Assembly: GCA_947568835.1 (NCBI GenBank)
Contig: OX387603.1
Span: 6,856,701-6,920,700, forward strand
DNA length: 64,000 bases
Direction of reading: 5' to 3'
DNA from: Protonemura montana
Taxonomy: Eukaryota; Arthropoda; Insecta; Plecoptera; Nemouridae
In this document: piece by piece, positions 23,335 to 35,000 of the stretch
How positions within the stretch are numbered: the first letter of the stretch is position 1
How the letters are laid out: each line of letters begins with the position of its first letter
Notes under the pieces: model-generated
Seen by the model: only the letters and a program-made list of their open reading frames with translations
What the model was told of the DNA's origin: nothing
Database searches by the model: none
Translations under genes and position numbers: made by a program

Positions 23335-23926
23335 TCAGCCTGTTAAAAATTTCTTCCCGTAGAACTGAGCTTTCCTTTCAAATGCTGGGGCTTTAATTGG
23401 TGTGTTTTGCTTGTAAAATGGATTCATTGAATACTGAAAAATAGTAGAAAAAAATACATTTTATTACAAATCTAGAAATTATACCATTACATTTTAACTT
23501 TCCACTGGTAACGTACCTTAATATAGCTTTCGTACATTTCCATAAAGAAGCTCTTTATACCATCCTCATTCTTGTTATCGTGTACCATAATAAACCGCAT
23601 ATTGCTTGCAGTAATAAACGCTGACACAAACCACTGGTTAAATTTGTCGACGGATTTTAAATACATGTTGTTTGTTTTCCACATATGCTCATCCACTAAA
23701 TCTAGTGCTGCGTGAGCAATAAATTGATTGAGATGCCGATGATCTTCTTTCTACAATAAAAATATTAAATTTCATGTAAAAACTGTAAAAATACGAAAAA
23801 GTGATTAAATTTCATTTCTTTCATTGCTTAACTTACTTTAACATCCTTATTGGCGGGTGATAGCTCCATTTCAAATACCGGATTATCCAAGTGTCCCACA
23901 ATTACAAAATAGTACGTTCCAGACAT
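23335..23926 (-). CDS. TRAPPC2: TRAPP complex subunit 2 (sedlin)
   Basis: Sedlin is a small longin-fold subunit of the TRAPP tethering complexes that act in ER-Golgi traffic and Rab activation. Exons 23926-23837, 23750-23517 and 23433-23335 give 140 residues, the usual length of the family. It starts [21 protein letters not shown], with [19 protein letters not shown] in the middle and [20 protein letters not shown] near the end, all strongly conserved blocks. The last exon is short (33 codons including the stop) and easily missed, because the middle exon reads on into the intron. The gene is head to head with DPH3 (197 bases between starts) and in tandem behind PRCP. Confidence 0.96.
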
Positions 23927-24123
23927 TTTAACTCGTTTTAAAATTATTTATTCTTGTGTCAGCAGCACACTTCATTGACGTTTCTTACTCAACACTTTTA
24001 GCAGCTGACAATTCGGGTGACCACCGCCTTTCGATCTTATTCCACGATTGGAACTTGAAAGGCTGTGGTTTAGAACATTTGAAGGAAAATGGGTCTTTTT
24101 ATCGAATATTGTAGAATCTAATC
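23927..24123. promoter_or_regulatory. Shared promoter interval, TRAPPC2 / DPH3
   Basis: Only 197 bases separate the divergent start codons of two housekeeping genes, so a bidirectional promoter is likely. No clear TATA box was seen. Inferred from geometry. Confidence 0.6.
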
Positions 24124-27100
24124 ATGTCTGTTTATCACGACGAAATTGAAATCGAAGACTTCGAATACGACGAAGATACAGAAACGTATTACTATCCTTG
24201 TCCTTGTGGAGATAGATTTCAAATAAGTAAGGTAATTGAAAGTTACACCTTTGTCAAGCATGGTATGGTATCTATAACCTAACAGATATATCTTCAAAAC
24301 TTGCATTTCTATGCTTGCATCCTCTACATTTCTGAATTTAAATTTATTTTGACATTTAATTTACTGACTGAAAGTATTCTTACCTCCTTGATGTGAACTT
24401 ACATTCCTTGGTGCCAGGACTGTTCAAGCAATTGCAATACTTTCACAAATGGATTTTTGAAAATTTCACAATAGGACTGGTTCTAACATAGAATAAGGGT
24501 TCTAATAAAGGGCAACTCTCAGGCTAGTTCTTCGGAGTGAAGCACCAATCCTGGAATCAGTGGCAGTCGGTTTTATTGCTCTGGTCAGAAAAACTGACTA
24601 AACCCGAGTCGCTCTTGGCCAATTACAACCCAGTGAGCAACAGTTTTTAATGTGATTTTGATTACCATGGTTATAAAAAATCGCAAAGAAAAGAGCTGCA
24701 GAAAATTATGCTCTTTTAAATTTAAGTTAATGATTTTCTTTAGATTTTTTTAGGCAGAATTGGGTAGATCCTCAGAAAATGACTGCACCCAAGTTGTCCC
24801 AACACTAGTAGTAAGGGACAGCAGGCGCTACGATTTACAGACTTACAAACTTTAAAACATGTCTAGGAAGAACTGGAAGCCGGTGAGGAAACTGCTACCT
24901 GCCCAAGCTGCTCTTTGGTAATAAAAGTGATTTATGACCCGGTAAGTACTAAACGCCTTATAATTTGGAATATTGAGCCTTCTAAATCTCCAGAAAATAT
25001 TAAATAAACTAGGGCTTCGCAAACGCAATTTGAGTCGCATTGTAAAATGAGCTTAGCTATATTTTTTGATGGTAAAAAGGTGATCCGATCAGTGGCGTAA
25101 CTACCGGCAGGGCAGGCGGGGCGACCGCCCCCGGGCCCAGAGGTTTTTCCCTCATAGGGCCCGTGGGACCCGTCAGGATAGAAAAACGCGAGCGTTTGCC
25201 ATACTCACGCCGGCCGACGAGCTCGTACCCACGACCCACGTTAAATGTATTTGTTGTGTTTGCTTTAAAAATCTTAAAGTTTAGAGTTGCATTTCAAGCA
25301 CTCTCACTACCCCGTTGAGGCTCTGGATCTAGCCTACTCCTCGTAATGGTAACATACTTACTACGTTGCTACTGCCGCTGAGTGCGTAGGCTACACATTC
25401 AAAGCTACTGCCGTACTCTTTGTCGGCGCAAATGACCGAATTTGAGTTATTTTTGCGGGTATGGGTAACTTATTTTTCCCAATTGTGGGAAAAAAATGCT
25501 GTTACACAATACAATAAGTAGTTCAGTAGTCACTGCTACTAGGGCTATAGTGGCTGACAGCAGTCACCGTGGGGACATCACGGGGCCTAATAAGGCGTGT
25601 TAAATGTGACAATAACAACAAAGTGAATAAACTTCTTAAAATCAGCAGCTTTTTCGTACCGACTGGTTAGAGTTTTCTGGTATGCAGCAATAGTTTGGCC
25701 GTGACAAAAGAACAAGACACAAGAAATTTGTCTGACGTGCACCACACGAAAATACAGTGAGAACAGATTAGGTAATACTTTTGCAATGCAGGGGTTAATT
25801 AATAATAATCCCAGTTTCAGTTATTCTCAGTCAAATTTGGTACAAGTTGTCATGTTTCCTTTCCTCCCATATAAAGTTTAGTATGCAGTCCCTTCAATCA
25901 TAAATCCATCATACTTTCTCAATCTGTAGTCACGAAACATTTCCCGAAATATTTCTTTGTTGACAAAGGCCCATGCCGTCTGTAGGGGCATTTTCCTAAT
26001 TGTACTGAGTCAAAACTAAGCTTTTCTGCTAGCTGCTATGAAACAAAATCCAAAACGGGGCTTGGCTATTCACCTGCACTCGATGTTGCGTATTGTCAAT
26101 CGTGTTGGCTATTTGCTGACAGAAAAGAAGACAAGTAGCTGTTTAAATAAAGGGAAGCTACCCCAGGGGAAAATAGAATACATGACTGGAAACATATATT
26201 TATCACTTTTCACCTAGGATCGCTTTTGGTGAACTTATACAAATGTGTGCGATACTGAAACATTAGAACTGTTTATTTTGTTTATACCCTTTCCTTTTGG
26301 ATGTGTGTGGGGGGGGGGGGGAGGGGGCCCAACGAAAAATCTTACCCCCGGGCCCAGGGATACCTAGTTACGCCACTGGATCCGATCCACTCTGTAGATC
26401 AAAGCAAAAATAAAATTCACAAAATTAAGTCGGAAATTTGTGAACAGAAATGAGAAGGGAAAGACGTGCGGGCTCAAAAACTTTGCAACTTCTTAATTTT
26501 GATGTACTAGGTTTTTTTCAGTTCCAATGAGTATTGGCTAGCTAGGATTTATAAGTTTTTGTTTGGTTCTCCCAGACATTAGATCAGGTCTAATGAGTTT
26601 TTACCAGTTAATCAGCAATGGCTAATCAGGAATAATCAATTTTAACATGATTCAACCTCGATATTTTGTAACAGACCTAATGCGTGTATACCAGTTTCTA
26701 TCAGCTTATCGGAAATAATCAGTTTAGGCATAAAGTTGTACAATTTTTGATAACTTCCAGTATGTGCATACATATTTGCTGAGAATTGTGGTATCATTAA
26801 TCTGGACATGGGCAAACAATAAGGTAAAAACTGGCTTTGAAACTTAAAACGATACCCATGATATACCTGGGATTGAGATCCTTGGTTTAGTGCCTTTGAC
26901 TAAATGGACTTGGAACATCCAGCAGAAAACCTTGTTCTGGTTAGCAAGAATTGTGCCTGAAGGCCTTAGTCCAGGAGACCCTATTCAGCTTCCCCTTGAA
27001 ACTTTTTAATTGTAAATACTAATAATGAAGCGGCTGGATATGGATTCTGGTGAAGAAAAAAAGAGAGACCTTACCGGAGCAAGAAGCACTTTTCAAAACA

Positions 27101-27262
27101 TTTTTAGTATTTGTAGTAAAATCTGTCTTTCCTTCTTCACGACGATCGGTGAATTGAAATGCTTGCTTATTCCTGTATCTCCTTGATTAGGAAACCTTTG
27201 AAAAAGAAGACGTCGAGCAAGTAATACCCGCAGAGAAAGAGAAGCAACTTCAGACAGCCTAA
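24124..27262 (+). CDS. DPH3: Diphthamide biosynthesis protein 3 (CSL zinc-finger)
   Basis: DPH3 is the small iron/zinc-binding electron donor for the first step of diphthamide synthesis on elongation factor 2, and it also serves Elongator. Exons 24124-24231, 24867-24941 and 27191-27262 give 84 residues (human 82). The metal ligands are Cys26 and Cys28 in CPCG and Cys48 and Cys51 in CPSC. The start [18 protein letters not shown] is typical of the family. The C-terminal exon ([13 protein letters not shown]...) is divergent, as in other species. Intron 2 is about 2.2 kb because it holds a 1.29-kb hAT-type element. The stop is one base from the POLR3G start codon, and no AATAAA lies before it, so the transcript must run into or through POLR3G. 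Confidence 0.95.
25090..26378. mobile_element. hAT-type non-autonomous DNA transposon
   Basis: A 1289-base element begins CAGTGGCGTAACTA and ends with its exact reverse complement. It is flanked by a perfect 8-base target duplication, GATCCGAT (25082-25089 and 26379-26386). Subterminal GGGCCC/CCCGGG-rich segments mirror each other. The 8-base duplication and CAG-type ends fit the hAT superfamily. No open frame resembling a transposase was found inside, so mobility would depend on a copy elsewhere. A run of G at about 26308-26320 lies inside the 3' end. It sits in DPH3 intron 2. Confidence 0.88.
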
Positions 27263-27263
27263 C

Positions 27264-28515
27264 ATGTCGCGAGGCCGAGGTCGAGGTGGAGGCGGCAGCA
27301 TGTCGTTCTCGATGGAGCAGCTCGGCTTCACGGCAGGCGAGACTCTGCCAGGGCCGGTGCTGCAGCCGCCGCCAACTTTCCCCAAAATGGAACGGCCACC
27401 GGCGCCCATCGCGCTCGACCCCGAACTCGAGTACCTTCTGACGCTCAAGCGCGACTTCGTTGACTTTGTCCGTGACTCGCCGGCATTCATTCGGCCAACG
27501 CGGCCCAAAGCAGACATCGCGAGGTACTCAGACCGGTACCAGGCGACACAGGCCGAGCTCAGTCTGCACTGGCCGCACTTCCCGGAGGAGCTGAGGCCAC
27601 AAAACAGCAAGCGCAAGGCCAAGAGTCCTAAGGTGCGCTTGCATCATGCAAAGTTTTTCTGCCTTTTTTAACTCTGTTTTGAAACGGTACAGTGATTTTA
27701 CAGTGAATAAACAAACAATAGCTCAAACTTGTAAAAGATTCTAGAACTACATAGATAACTATTTGTTTGATAGCATTAAGGGTGTAATGGCAACTTTGTC
27801 TGAACCAATTTAGTTGCAAATTTGATTGCCCGTTGGTACTTGAATAGCCCACTCGGCCACATATAAAAAGAAATTTCCTACTTCTTATCCATGACACTTC
27901 AACAACTACCATGACCAATAATAAGGCAATAAAAGCTTTAACAATCAGAGTATATCAACATTTGGTCTGCAATCTTCATGTGCAAAACTTGAAATTTTAT
28001 CCTTCGTACATCTAATAGAATTTCAAACAAGTCATTAAACCAATGAGATAAATGATCTAAATAAAATAAAAACAAGGTAGCAAGCATTGAAAGAAACTAT
28101 TTAAAACTGGGTTTAAAAGCTAAGTTAAAAAAAAAAGTAAATTTCATGACATTTCAAACTTATGCCTGTTACTTTATTAAGGTTGATAACAGTTGAAAGT
28201 AGAGAGGAGTCTAAAAAGCATCAAAATTAGCAAGCACTTCCTGTGTCTTTCCAGGCTGCCGTGCCGAGCAAGGTGCTGAAGACGGCAGAGTCACTGTCAA
28301 ACCGACTGGAGGAGCTGGAGAAGACAGAGCAGGCAAGCGGGGACGAGGATGAGGAGCAGGCGAAGGAGAAGGAGGGCGAGGAGGAAGAGGAGGTGGAGGG
28401 TGAAGACGTCGACGAGGAGATGGACGACGGCACCGACTATGTCAATAACTACTTTGACAACGGTGACGGATACCTAGACGAAGACGAAGAAATGGACGAT
28501 GGGCCCATTTATTAG
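27264..28515 (+). CDS. POLR3G: RNA polymerase III subunit RPC7 (C31 family)
   Basis: RPC7 belongs to the trimer RPC3-RPC6-RPC7 that helps Pol III initiate on tRNA and 5S genes. Exons 27264-27632 and 28255-28515 join in phase 0 to 209 residues (human about 223). The N-terminus is basic and glycine-rich (SRGRGRGGGG), followed by the family blocks MEQLGFTAGETLP, QPPPTFP, LDPELEYLLTLKRDF and RYSDRYQ. The C-terminus is a long acidic tail ending DYVNNYFDNGDGYLDEDEEMDD, characteristic of C31/RPC7. The product could be called POLR3G or POLR3GL, since invertebrates usually have one gene. It starts one base after the DPH3 stop. AATAAA occurs at 29078-29083. Confidence 0.93.
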
Positions 28516-31500
28516 TCTGTTTTGGGCGGTTACAAGGAGCCTTGACTTGACGCTTCTCCTCATTGATTGTTTGTGTACATTTTTGTGACTGGATAATTCA
28601 CCAATAGTGTTTTCGGCTGAATTGCACTGGTGCGGGTTTGAAACTTGCTCAATGCTATGATGGTTTTACAGGTGGTTCCCATTCATCTAAGGAAGGAGTT
28701 TTCCCACCCTATCAGTAAGGCAGATTTCCTTGCATGGCTGAAAATATCAGAACGAGAAATGTGCTCTGGCAGAGACCCGAAAGCATGCATATCAACCACA
28801 AAATATTGCGCTCGGGCAATTTGCAATTTAATGAAATTAAGTTAAATTGACTCATGTTTAGCGTGTACATCTTCACTAAATTATTGGCATCAATGCAAAT
28901 TTGTTGCTGATAACATCAGTCATATTCAAAATTATAAAGAGTCGTGAAATCTTGGGTGTGCTCTTTTGAGAAGCGAAAAGTCAAATCTCTTTGGGTAGAA
29001 ACCTTGCATTCGATTGCAATGTGCTGTGCACAATTTGCTACTTATTTTTAGTAAAAATGGCGAGAGGCTTCAACCAAAATAAATGTCTCTCTTATTTTAG
29101 AGATACTTATTTGTTTTAGAGCCTTTGTTTAGTTGGAAGTTACCTTCTAAGTATTGATTTTGTTGATAGTGCCTTGATTGTGCCAAATAATGTATCATAT
29201 TAGGAAGTTGTTTAGAAACATTTCAAGCAAGGCATATATAGTTTGTAACAAGTAAACAAGGCAAGATTCTTGCTTGTTTTGATCCCTTGAGGATCAATGA
29301 TAGATCACACTTCCTTTATACGCCCCCTTCTTGGTCCTTTTGAAGAGCTTCTAGGTTCTTAGTGCCCTCTCAAAGAACCCCCTTCAAAACTATAAATGAC
29401 ATTACAAAATCATCTGCAATGTGCAAGGCATTAAGATTTTTTTTTTTTTTTTTTTTTGCCATAGCATATGCAACTGACACTTAATTTGCCCACAACAATC
29501 GAGCATTTTTTCAAAAGTTTCCTGCATAATTTTTTATTTTTATTCTATGTCATTTAGATATAATTTTTGGCGAGTTATGAAGATGGTCAATAGACTGCTG
29601 TTGGGTTCGTCAAGAGGTGATCTTTGTGACGAACTGGTTCCAAGCCACATGGAATGTCAATAAATTATCTTAATTAAAAGAAAAACATGCACAAAAATAA
29701 AACTGACAGCAACAATTGCATCTTGCTAGTTACTAGCAATGCTGCAAGTGGAAAGTGTATTTATTACTAGTTTTAACGACGACTGTCAAGCTGCTAAAAT
29801 GGTTCAGTGGCTGTTATTTGCTTTGTGAGGAAAGAAAATTACTGCTACTCCTTCCAGCAACGGACTATTGCGGACATCAAGCTATTGTGCTCTTGGCTCA
29901 CCTATTGAAATTCTTTCCATGATCCACAAAATTTTACTGATTTGCTACCAGCTACTCCCAGTAGGATGGGAACAGGATATAAACATTGTGGTAAAGTGGT
30001 ATTTTCCGTGCTAAGCTGAGAAAAATTGGCCACAACACCAAATTTGCCAAGGTGAACATGTACCATCCACGAACGGTTGGGTTGCAAGTTAGAAGCAAGA
30101 CATTTTCAGCGATTCTTTAATCAGCTTAAATTCAAAGTACCTATTTGAATTACATTCATGACAACTTTGTTCACTTATTTATTTTATAATCATTTTGCTC
30201 TGGCCATTTCACAACCATTCTCAACAACGTCAACCATCCAGCACACTTAAGCTTTATCTGCTTAAGTATCGATTCCACCTCAAGGACTCCAGAAAAAGAG
30301 TTTGTACATAACAGCAAGTTCTTCTTTCCAGTTGATTTCTAGAAAGCTCGATTGAGCTTTTTGTCGAACGTCAACAAAGCCAGACAGATAGCATTGCTGA
30401 GAAAATTACTGGGTTAGCGGAGTACGTAGTTGCTTCTAAAATTGAAGGCAACATCAAAACTGCTCAACACAACTCTTTGCAGTGTAGGTGTGTGTGCTAG
30501 AATATTTGCAAACTAATTTGTTGAAAACCAGTCCTTACATCAAAAATCAGACATCAAACATTGTGTAGGTTTCCTATTCTCAATAGCACTATGTGGTCGG
30601 CTACTTTTATGAAGGTAGATACTAGATGGTGATTACTGAGTAGATACTGTGAAAGCACATACTTTGTTCAATCTGTTTAATTGGGGGTACAGCAAACTTA
30701 AACCACAGATAGATCTGTTTCAGTTCTGGGAAAGTTACTGATGAATGACAATAGAATATATTTATAATTAAGCTATGAATAAATAAATTGTTAAAAAATT
30801 GGGCTTGTGTGAGAAAACGTTCACAAATACAAGTATGGTTCTATTTACATGAACATAAAGTAGTTAATGACTAGAAAACTTATACCCATATAATTTCATT
30901 TCATGCTGTATATTACACAGTATTTCAATAAATAGGTGGGTATGTAATTACACGTTTTATAAGCGTGCACCAATCACAAATGTGACGAGGAATGTTGCAA
31001 AGCAATTTCAGAAATAACTTATTCAAACCAAGGATATGGCCAAAAAACGAGAACATGCTAAATCACAAAAAATATTAACACATAAACCCATCACAGAGTT
31101 TAAAGAAATAAAAGTCAATAAATAACATATTTCTGAGAATATTTTCAGCAATTACGTACTGAAAGATGGCTTCTGCCGTCACTTCTATATCTCTAGGTTG
31201 AACCTTTCAAATAAAAAAAATAAAATGTTGAGTGCATAGCCTGTTCTTATAAATCTCTGCAACAACTTACAAGCTTCGTCACATTCACTAAGCAAAAATT
31301 ACAAAATATATGCATACAGTATTCTGTACGGTACATATTAGGACTTACGTAGTTAACTTCTTTCATTCCATTTACAACCAGACTCAAAACTAGTTACTAC
31401 TACAATAACAGTAGGCAGGTAGATGCATACCTAGCAATGCACTACAGTATCTTATTCATCTTGCACCACCCTATCAAGTACCAACACAAGCAAAATGTCG

Positions 31501-32093: not shown

Positions 32094-35000
32094 CTAGTTT
32101 TCTATCCACGATGGGATGCCAGCGTTGGGCGACTTCACCTTGATGTTGAACTGCTTCAACGTCGCCTCCAACGCAACCTGGTTCCCCGAGAAGTACGCCG
32201 AGATCGCATTGTGGAACAGTAGCAGCTGCTTGTGCATCACTTTGATCTGAAAAACAACACCAAGCATTTAGTGGCGCTAGTTAATATTTTAATCACAAGT
32301 AAAGTGTGAACCAAAATTGTATTATTGATTTTGTGATGTTAACCTTAGTGCTGTTTTTACAGTGGGCCCTGTAGCTCTGGTCTTTTGGCATAGCCAAGTA
32401 TCGGGAGAATGATTATGATTAGAACCTAACCTGGAAGCCAGAAACTCATAGCTTGATTGTAACCTACTCCTGACAAAGACTGCCATGAGGATCACCATCT
32501 TCATGTCGCTTTTAAAGGACAGAACAACTTGAACAACAGGATTCCTCAACAAATCCATGCTGTAGAGAGGTTGATAGGTAAAGCAAGTACAAGTGTTGTA
32601 CTAACTTAAAGCCATCCAACTAAAGTTTTAAACAGTTTGGCCATGAGATAGATAAAATATCCATCAACAAACTGACCCAGCACAGTGTTTCAAACAGTTG
32701 TTTTTATCCAGCATTTCTTTTTACTTCGTATAAACCACTATAGTATTTTACCCTGTTCTCGTCTAAGAACTTGAGTTTGATGGCAACATCCGAGCGCAGT
32801 TTCTCGAATGAGACTCTGTAGACGTTGAAATTCTGCTGGGCCTCTTCGATGCGAGCAGTTACGGCTTCAGTCCGTGGTGTCTGGGCAAGAAGTTCGAGAT
32901 CCGTTCGATATGCGTCATACTCTATCCTGGATGTCTCATACTGGCGAATAGTAAGCAGCGTATCTTCAATTGTTTTGTTACAGAGTGTGTTGACAGACGA
33001 AACAAAGAAGTTTAAGGCTCCTAGTAGAGTTTCACCATTCTTGGTGAGATTGCGCTGAGTTTCAGCATTGTAGAGGAACTCTTCCTGGAGTTCAGGCGAC
33101 TTCTGGGCCAGGTCGGCGAAAGTCTCTCCCAGAGCGTGCTAAAATAAAATGTTCACTTGATATGAATCAAATTGTAGTGGGTAATGGTTAGAGCCAAGAT
33201 TTTATGGTGTTATGATTTCGATAATTTCGTGGTAAGCTTTTTGGATTTCGGTGTTATGGCGGTGTTATGGAAAAAGTACAGAATTTCGTGTCTATAGCAG
33301 ATTTTAGACATAGGTGACGAAAAAAGAAGGTACGCGTTTTTAGCATTAGTTTTATCGAAATTTTAGTGCTAATTATTTAAATTTTAGCGTTTATAGCTAA
33401 ATAGAAAAAAAGAGCTTTTGCGATCTACATTCGAAAGGAATGAAGATTTAGGGTAAGCACTGGGATCTCTAATAAAGAAGTGATCAATAATAATTACAAT
33501 AAAGCAAATATTTAGTGTAGGTCCTCAACATCGGTATTTGTAAGGGACTTGGAACAAAATGAATAGCACAAATCAATATTTTACATAAATGCCACCATGA
33601 AATACATTGTATGGCAGTATGAGCGACACCTACTACTTGTTAAAACTTAACATTGAACAAGTTTCAATGGTAGCTTCCTTCATTCTTGTTCCTTTGTCAG
33701 TCAGCACAAGGTTTTATTGACTAAAAAACCTCTCTGCATCAACACTGTTCACAGGGGCTCAAATAGTTTGCTAAGTCAGAACTGCAAATGAGGGGTTTGA
33801 GATTTTTATGTCCATTAGAAATTGAATTAGACCCACTGCCTGGTACTAACAACATACTTTGCAAGATTGTCTTTTTTCTCCCAGACAAGTCTGGTGTTCC
33901 AGATTCCACACATCAAAATATATCCATCACTCACAAAGAGTTGCTTTGCTTGATCCTCAAAAGTCAAAGATTTATTACACCCAATTGAAATTTGAAATCC
34001 CAGCTAATCTCTATATAGACTGAATGCATGTGGTGCTGGTGCTCACATGGCAAGGAGGGGAAGATTCAGCCAACCAATGGCAATGGTTTCCTACAGCAAA
34101 CATTTTGCCCCACTACTTCTACCCCATAAGCTTAGGAATGTTGACAGCATTTGATGAGAAACAGACCTGAATATGACAAATCCATGGAAATGTGTGTTTA
34201 TAGAGATAAAATAAACATTTTACATTTTTGCACGGAAATAAGTGGCTATTTCGCAAAATACACGCATTTTAGTGAAATAGCTTCATTATCTCTCAATTTA
34301 GCATAAAAACAAATGGGTTTGTTTATTTATTTTCCGTGAAATATGATTTGATAAAAATGAAAAAAATAACAGATTATCTGAAATTTAAGATAATTGGGCA
34401 GGAAAAGGCTCATTTCGCGATGATTTCGCGGGAAATAGTTGATTTCGGTGTTATGAATGATTTTTCGTGAATTTCGCGTTTTGTCGCGATGAGCTTCTTA
34501 CATATTTGAGATGGGAATTCAATGAATCGCACTCATTTGTAAGAAAAACAAGAGATAAGAACAATTCGCGATTTCGCGCATCACCATATAATCGTGGCTC
34601 TAGTAATGGTACATAAAAAATTTAAATAAATTAAGTGGAAAGGTTGGTTTCTGTTGACAACTGAAAGTACACAAAACTCTCATTTAAAGAATTTGAGGAT
34701 ATTTAATTTGAAAGTGACATGCATTTGACAGCTAATTTTTTATATGTTACGGAGTTATGAAAATCATGTTTTTTAAAGAAGTAGACCATTTAATCTATGT
34801 GATGAATTGGAATGGTATTGGAAAAGATATTATACTTTTAAATCGATCACAGCTTCTTTTTTACGGGTAGTGCAAATTACTCACTTGGGTTTGAACAACG
34901 TGGTAGAAATGGCTTGCCATGGCACGAGATAGGCGCAATACATTAGAATATTTTCTCTGCGTATCTCGCAAGAGTTCAATTTGGGTCTCCAATTCAGTAT

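Follow-up and report, generated by a model that had tools for sequence, protein, structure and literature searches.

DPH3 and POLR3G lie one base apart on a shared exon in Protonemura montana, a probable dicistronic locus

How is POLR3G expressed when its start codon lies a single base beyond the stop codon of DPH3? The question is raised by a locus of the plecopteran insect Protonemura montana, within a 64,000-nucleotide stretch (C2:6856701-6920700; hereafter the window, in which positions are given unless another contig or locus is named). The TAA of DPH3 occupies 27260-27262 and the ATG of POLR3G 27264-27266, 1 nt apart on the plus strand of the same exon, and translated exon models bear out the preliminary description of this DNA, which had placed the stop and the start one base apart on one exon. 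The shared exon, its one-base spacer, the intactness of both genes and the absence of AATAAA from the shared exon can all be read directly from the sequence. Beyond these observations, we favour the reading that DPH3 and POLR3G probably form one dicistronic transcription unit.

Gene models and copy number

The DPH3 model comprises three exons and encodes an 84-aa protein. Exon 1 (24124..24231, plus strand) ends at a phase-0 donor, GTAATT; exon 2 (24867..24941, plus strand) contains the sole other ATG of the spliced mRNA upstream of POLR3G, at 24934; and the coding part of exon 3, the last coding exon (27191..27262, plus strand), carries the TAA and contains no ATG in any frame. Beyond the spacer, a C at 27263 on the plus strand, POLR3G coding exon 1 (27264..27632, plus strand) is continuous with DPH3 exon 3 and runs to a GT donor after 27632. 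Coding exon 2 (28255..28515, plus strand) follows an acceptor, TTTCCAG, at 28248-28254 and ends in a TAG stop, giving a two-exon model of 209 residues. GC content jumps sharply at the junction, from 43% in DPH3 exon 3 to 64% in POLR3G exon 1 (27263-27632).

Both products match known families over most of their length. The Pfam CSL zinc ribbon profile PF05207 matches DPH3 across the full domain (7.5e-26, positions 1-55 of 55), and the Pfam profile RNA_pol_3_Rpc31 (PF11705) matches POLR3G at 1.5e-29 (positions 11-212 of 212). Among solved structures in the PDB, the DPH3 homologue 2jr7_A covers residues 1-75 of 84, including 14 residues encoded by exon 3, and leaves the last 9 residues, beside the junction, unaligned. 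The RPC7 structure 7a6h_Q covers POLR3G residues 4-206 of 209 (1.4e-26), and the POLR3G start is therefore well supported. As the DPH3 and POLR3G frames differ, readthrough of the DPH3 stop would not by itself yield a fusion protein. Both ORFs are complete, lie close together on the same strand and belong to known families, as expected of the non-operon dicistronic gene pairs of animals, a class further defined by a mature mRNA that carries both ORFs.

Genome searches covered an assembly of 258.5 Mb in 34 contigs. The PF05207 profile gave three matches, namely DPH3 exon 1, DPH3 exon 2 and a separate locus, L002, which on our reading of its J-domain-like sequence is a DNAJC24/DPH4-like protein; at L002 1213-1659, J-domain-like sequence and the CSL zinc ribbon match lie within a single 148-aa open frame. 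PF11705 gave one match, this POLR3G locus, via exon 2 only. The junction string occurs once in the genome, and a DNA search of the genome with the joined exons returned no other copy of DPH3 or POLR3G. Because such searches score best candidates only, a single copy of each gene is likely but not proven. With no second copy of either found, both proteins are probably supplied by this locus. Judged from sequence, two intact genes 1 nt apart with no other copy found are not a chance feature of ORF calling.

A probable shared transcript

In the reading we favour, transcription would start in the interval between DPH3 and its divergent neighbour TRAPPC2 (sedlin), three introns would be spliced out and the mRNA would end near 29078. 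The TRAPPC2 5′ exons lie at 23487..23926 on the minus strand, with the start codon at complement 23924-23926 and a Pfam Sedlin_N match (1.4e-32) on 23487-23750. The head-to-head interval (23927..24123) leaves 197 bp between the two start codons and is a putative bidirectional promoter, to judge by its position and one reverse CCAAT at 24047. At the other end, the first AATAAA past the POLR3G stop (29078..29083, plus strand) is preceded by TATAAA at 28933 and AGTAAA at 29050, is followed by T/GT-rich sequence and probably directs polyadenylation of the shared mRNA. Between the two ends, the first AATAAA past the DPH3 stop lies at 27706..27711 (plus strand), within the POLR3G intron as previously described, and could serve as an early poly(A) signal if an mRNA carrying DPH3 alone is made; the same AT-rich intron holds further AATAAA at 27928 and 28060.

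Spacing around the DPH3/POLR3G junction is looser: TRAPPC2 is 197 bp off and, among the 17 coding stretches tested in the window, the nearest rightward one with a Pfam match is at 32704. Window-wide tRNA and Rfam scans gave no matches. DPH3 intron 2 holds a 1,289-bp transposon-like insert (window 25090-26378) whose 14-bp terminal inverted repeats and 8-bp target duplication, GATCCGAT, are both perfect; it contains no ORF longer than 90 aa and is presumably hAT-like.

Several alternatives had been offered for this junction by the preliminary description. Its dicistronic mRNA is the best supported, with a MOCS2A/MOCS2B parallel in the same genome (below), and its options of trans-splicing and of splicing onto a CTTCAG find little or no support. 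The 1-nt gap falls inside the range of −34 to 319 nt given for fly loci with polycistronic mRNA only (PMC4528330). No retrocopy of the spliced dicistron turned up in a DNA search of the genome. The search gave 32 matches, 4 from the locus itself and 28 weak ones (66-79% identity), the latter all within query positions 712-872, the acidic repetitive tail, and a retrocopy was accordingly set aside as proof of the mRNA.

A stronger form of the proposal is that POLR3G lacks any separate transcript and is translated solely as the downstream cistron of DPH3 mRNA, every molecule arising by leaky scanning or coupled reinitiation. We consider this form possible but doubtful. If it held, start-codon choice would determine how much of a diphthamide/Elongator factor is made relative to a Pol III subunit. 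POLR3G, as a Pol III subunit, is probably indispensable.

Alternatives to a shared mRNA

The main rival is a POLR3G promoter inside DPH3, in the tail of intron 2 (26379-27190), with DPH3 exon 3 serving as 5′ UTR. Exon 3 could be unspliced in such a transcript, or a non-coding first exon could be spliced to the 27190 acceptor, and the DPH3 mRNA would end at the intronic AATAAA at 27706, which is available for that role, or run through. Exon 3, without any ATG, would make a clean 5′ UTR, and the intron tail has CCAAT at 26524 (forward) and 26533 (reverse) together with Inr-like matches at 26518 and 26719, against about one Inr-like match expected by chance from a hand calculation. By contrast, a scan of 26382-27190 with fly-derived motif strings found TATA, DRE, TCT, NRF1-like and fly motif 1 and 6 elements all absent. 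A rise in CpG at 27051-27600 does not mark a promoter, as the window contains 59 such merged peaks, this one included, and the CpG profile was dropped as a promoter marker on that ground. Taken together, we regard an internal promoter as unlikely, although it outranks every other alternative.

Far less probable is a POLR3G transcript in which an upstream exon is cis-spliced to a second acceptor immediately 5′ of the ATG. The candidate named earlier, CTTCAG, had been placed at 27249-27254 and in fact lies at 27248-27253; it supplies an AG dinucleotide but is purine-flanked, with 27% pyrimidines at −18 to −4, and looks unusable. In the modelled genes, the four acceptors show 53, 67, 73 and 87% pyrimidines over the same positions (73% being the 27190 acceptor). 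Each of the 11 AGs lying between the 27190 acceptor and the ATG falls within 20-47%, which makes a second acceptor just before the ATG unlikely. The 14 AGs examined in 27100-27263 also include intronic AGs at 27107 and 27116, both with 67% pyrimidines.

Resolution of the transcript by operon-style spliced-leader trans-splicing, likewise raised earlier, finds little support and is highly improbable. Copepods and amphipods have rearranged mitochondrial gene orders; the mitochondrial genome of this assembly (C34, 15,885 bp) has tRNA-Leu(UUR) between cox1 and cox2, and its tRNA and protein gene order is one that we take to be the ancestral pancrustacean order, which argues against trans-splicing. 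A search of the genome for SL1 (RF00198) gave no match, but its controls were equally silent. Close spacing has a precedent in predicted Ciona operons, whose median gap is 1 bp, but the same source states that insects have no spliced leaders and that operons are unreported in copepods and amphipods (PMC7986045), and no pyrimidine-rich acceptor lies from 27191 to the ATG. As a separate observation on the mitochondrial contig, C4:5759425-5763762 (L005) is 99.84% identical to it across 4,338 bp and is either mitochondrial DNA that entered the nuclear genome very recently or an error of assembly.

Finally, a gene-model artefact, with the real last exon of DPH3 or first exon of POLR3G located elsewhere, could appeal to the 9 terminal DPH3 residues left uncovered by the best solved relative but is hardly credible against the alignment of 2jr7_A into exon 3, the near-complete alignment of RPC7 to POLR3G and the failure of genome searches to find further copies of either gene.

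Possible routes to POLR3G translation

On a dicistronic mRNA, DPH3 would be the first translated cistron. POLR3G would be reached chiefly by 40S subunits that bypass the DPH3 AUG and scan on through the AUG-poor 255-nt DPH3 ORF (leaky scanning), and some POLR3G would come from reinitiation by ribosomes that had just terminated at the TAA one base upstream; between these two routes we lean slightly towards leaky scanning. The exon 2 ATG is the only one between the two starts on the spliced dicistron, stands in a poor context with T at −3 and opens a 13-codon ORF that ends at 27224. This single out-of-frame ATG compares with a mean of 2.9 expected when the synonymous codons of DPH3 itself are shuffled (P(≤1) = 0.090), and with 4.0 expected when codons are drawn from other ORFs of the window (P(≤1) = 0.044; a pool of 2,046 codons, some from ORFs without a Pfam match). 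Other window ORFs, sampled as 121 overlapping stretches of 256 nt with ATGs counted in every frame, gave 8 stretches with one ATG and none with zero. This depletion mildly fits leaky scanning.

Start-codon context points the other way. The DPH3 start has A at −3 and T at +4, and the POLR3G start has A at −3. Judged by the general rule for start contexts, the DPH3 AUG, with its A at −3, is not plainly weak as a first-ORF start, a point against leaky scanning being efficient.

An ORF of 84 codons and a gap of 1 nt would make ordinary reinitiation inefficient. Reinitiation assisted by DENR-MCT-1 is described as needing no distance but as declining when the uORF lengthens (PMC5972666). The TURBS core TGGGA (UGGGA in the mRNA) is absent from the DPH3 ORF. 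An exon junction 370 nt beyond the DPH3 stop could trigger decay of the mRNA if POLR3G were untranslated. Upstream of the POLR3G AUG, the 97 nt next to it are poorly folded relative to shuffled sequence (z = +1.37; 189 of 200 shuffles do as well or better). Strong folding is predicted for the first 90 nt of POLR3G (−42 kcal/mol, z = −2.14; 4 of 200 shuffles as good). Such a pattern could favour choice of this AUG, but we draw no conclusion from it.

Relation to known dicistrons

No description of a DPH3/POLR3G pair was found in the literature searched. On sequence grounds, the locus is probably a new case within a familiar class, an ordinary dicistron, and leaves general understanding unchanged because such loci are already well documented. 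If the reading is correct, an arthropod expresses a core Pol III subunit and a translation-related factor from one mRNA, a housekeeping pair joins the list of dicistrons, and the 1-nt spacing provides a clean case in which to test how ribosomes of metazoans gain access to a second cistron. The arrangement also holds a caution for annotation pipelines, in which one ORF may be dropped or both fused.

In Drosophila, 159 dicistronic pairs are annotated and 2.5% of protein-coding gene models include a polycistronic transcript, though only 45 of the 159 loci yield both proteins exclusively from dicistronic mRNA (PMC4528330). Two of the known fly cases, stoned and Snapin, are reported to use leaky scanning through AUG-poor first ORFs, as indicated by in vivo bicistronic reporters (PMC11892635, citing an earlier study). 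They resemble the present locus in being dicistronic with an AUG-poor first ORF but differ in that their first-ORF start contexts diverge from consensus, whereas the DPH3 start has A at −3. Bicistronic genes of green algae likewise carry two ORFs per mRNA, with a short inter-ORF distance in some (14 nt in one), and start-context mutants there support leaky scanning; they belong to another eukaryote lineage and, unlike DPH3, have weak first-ORF start contexts (PMC11892635). Spliced-leader operons of Ciona share the median intercistronic distance of 1 bp among predicted operons but are resolved by trans-splicing (PMC7986045, which states that spliced leaders are absent in insects), whereas POLR3G has no good upstream acceptor.

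MOCS2A/MOCS2B, the counterpart of Mocs2/CG42503 in Drosophila, was chosen for look-up in this genome because it is a known dicistron, and it is known here from genomic sequence with predicted splicing. The pair lies within C3:4224000-4232000 (L020, L021 and L022). MOCS2A occupies one exon at C3:4226948-4226678, and a predicted GT-AG intron links it to an exon starting at 4225381, where its frame runs into a TGA immediately after the splice. MOCS2B begins with an ATG at 4225366, which follows this predicted stop by 10 nt on the same exon. MOCS2A shows no ATG depletion (2 observed versus 1.7 expected), and ATG poverty is therefore not a requirement of the dicistron class. The MOCS2 locus differs from DPH3/POLR3G in its gap of 10 rather than 1 nt and in a first stop that lies just beyond a splice junction. 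To our knowledge, DPH3 and POLR3G are not known as partners. The two MOCS2 products, by contrast, belong to a single enzyme as its subunits, and among fly dicistrons Mocs2/CG42503 is named as a case of high conservation (PMC4528330). What the two loci have in common is that each encodes two different small proteins, with the stop codon of the first and the start codon of the second on one exon.
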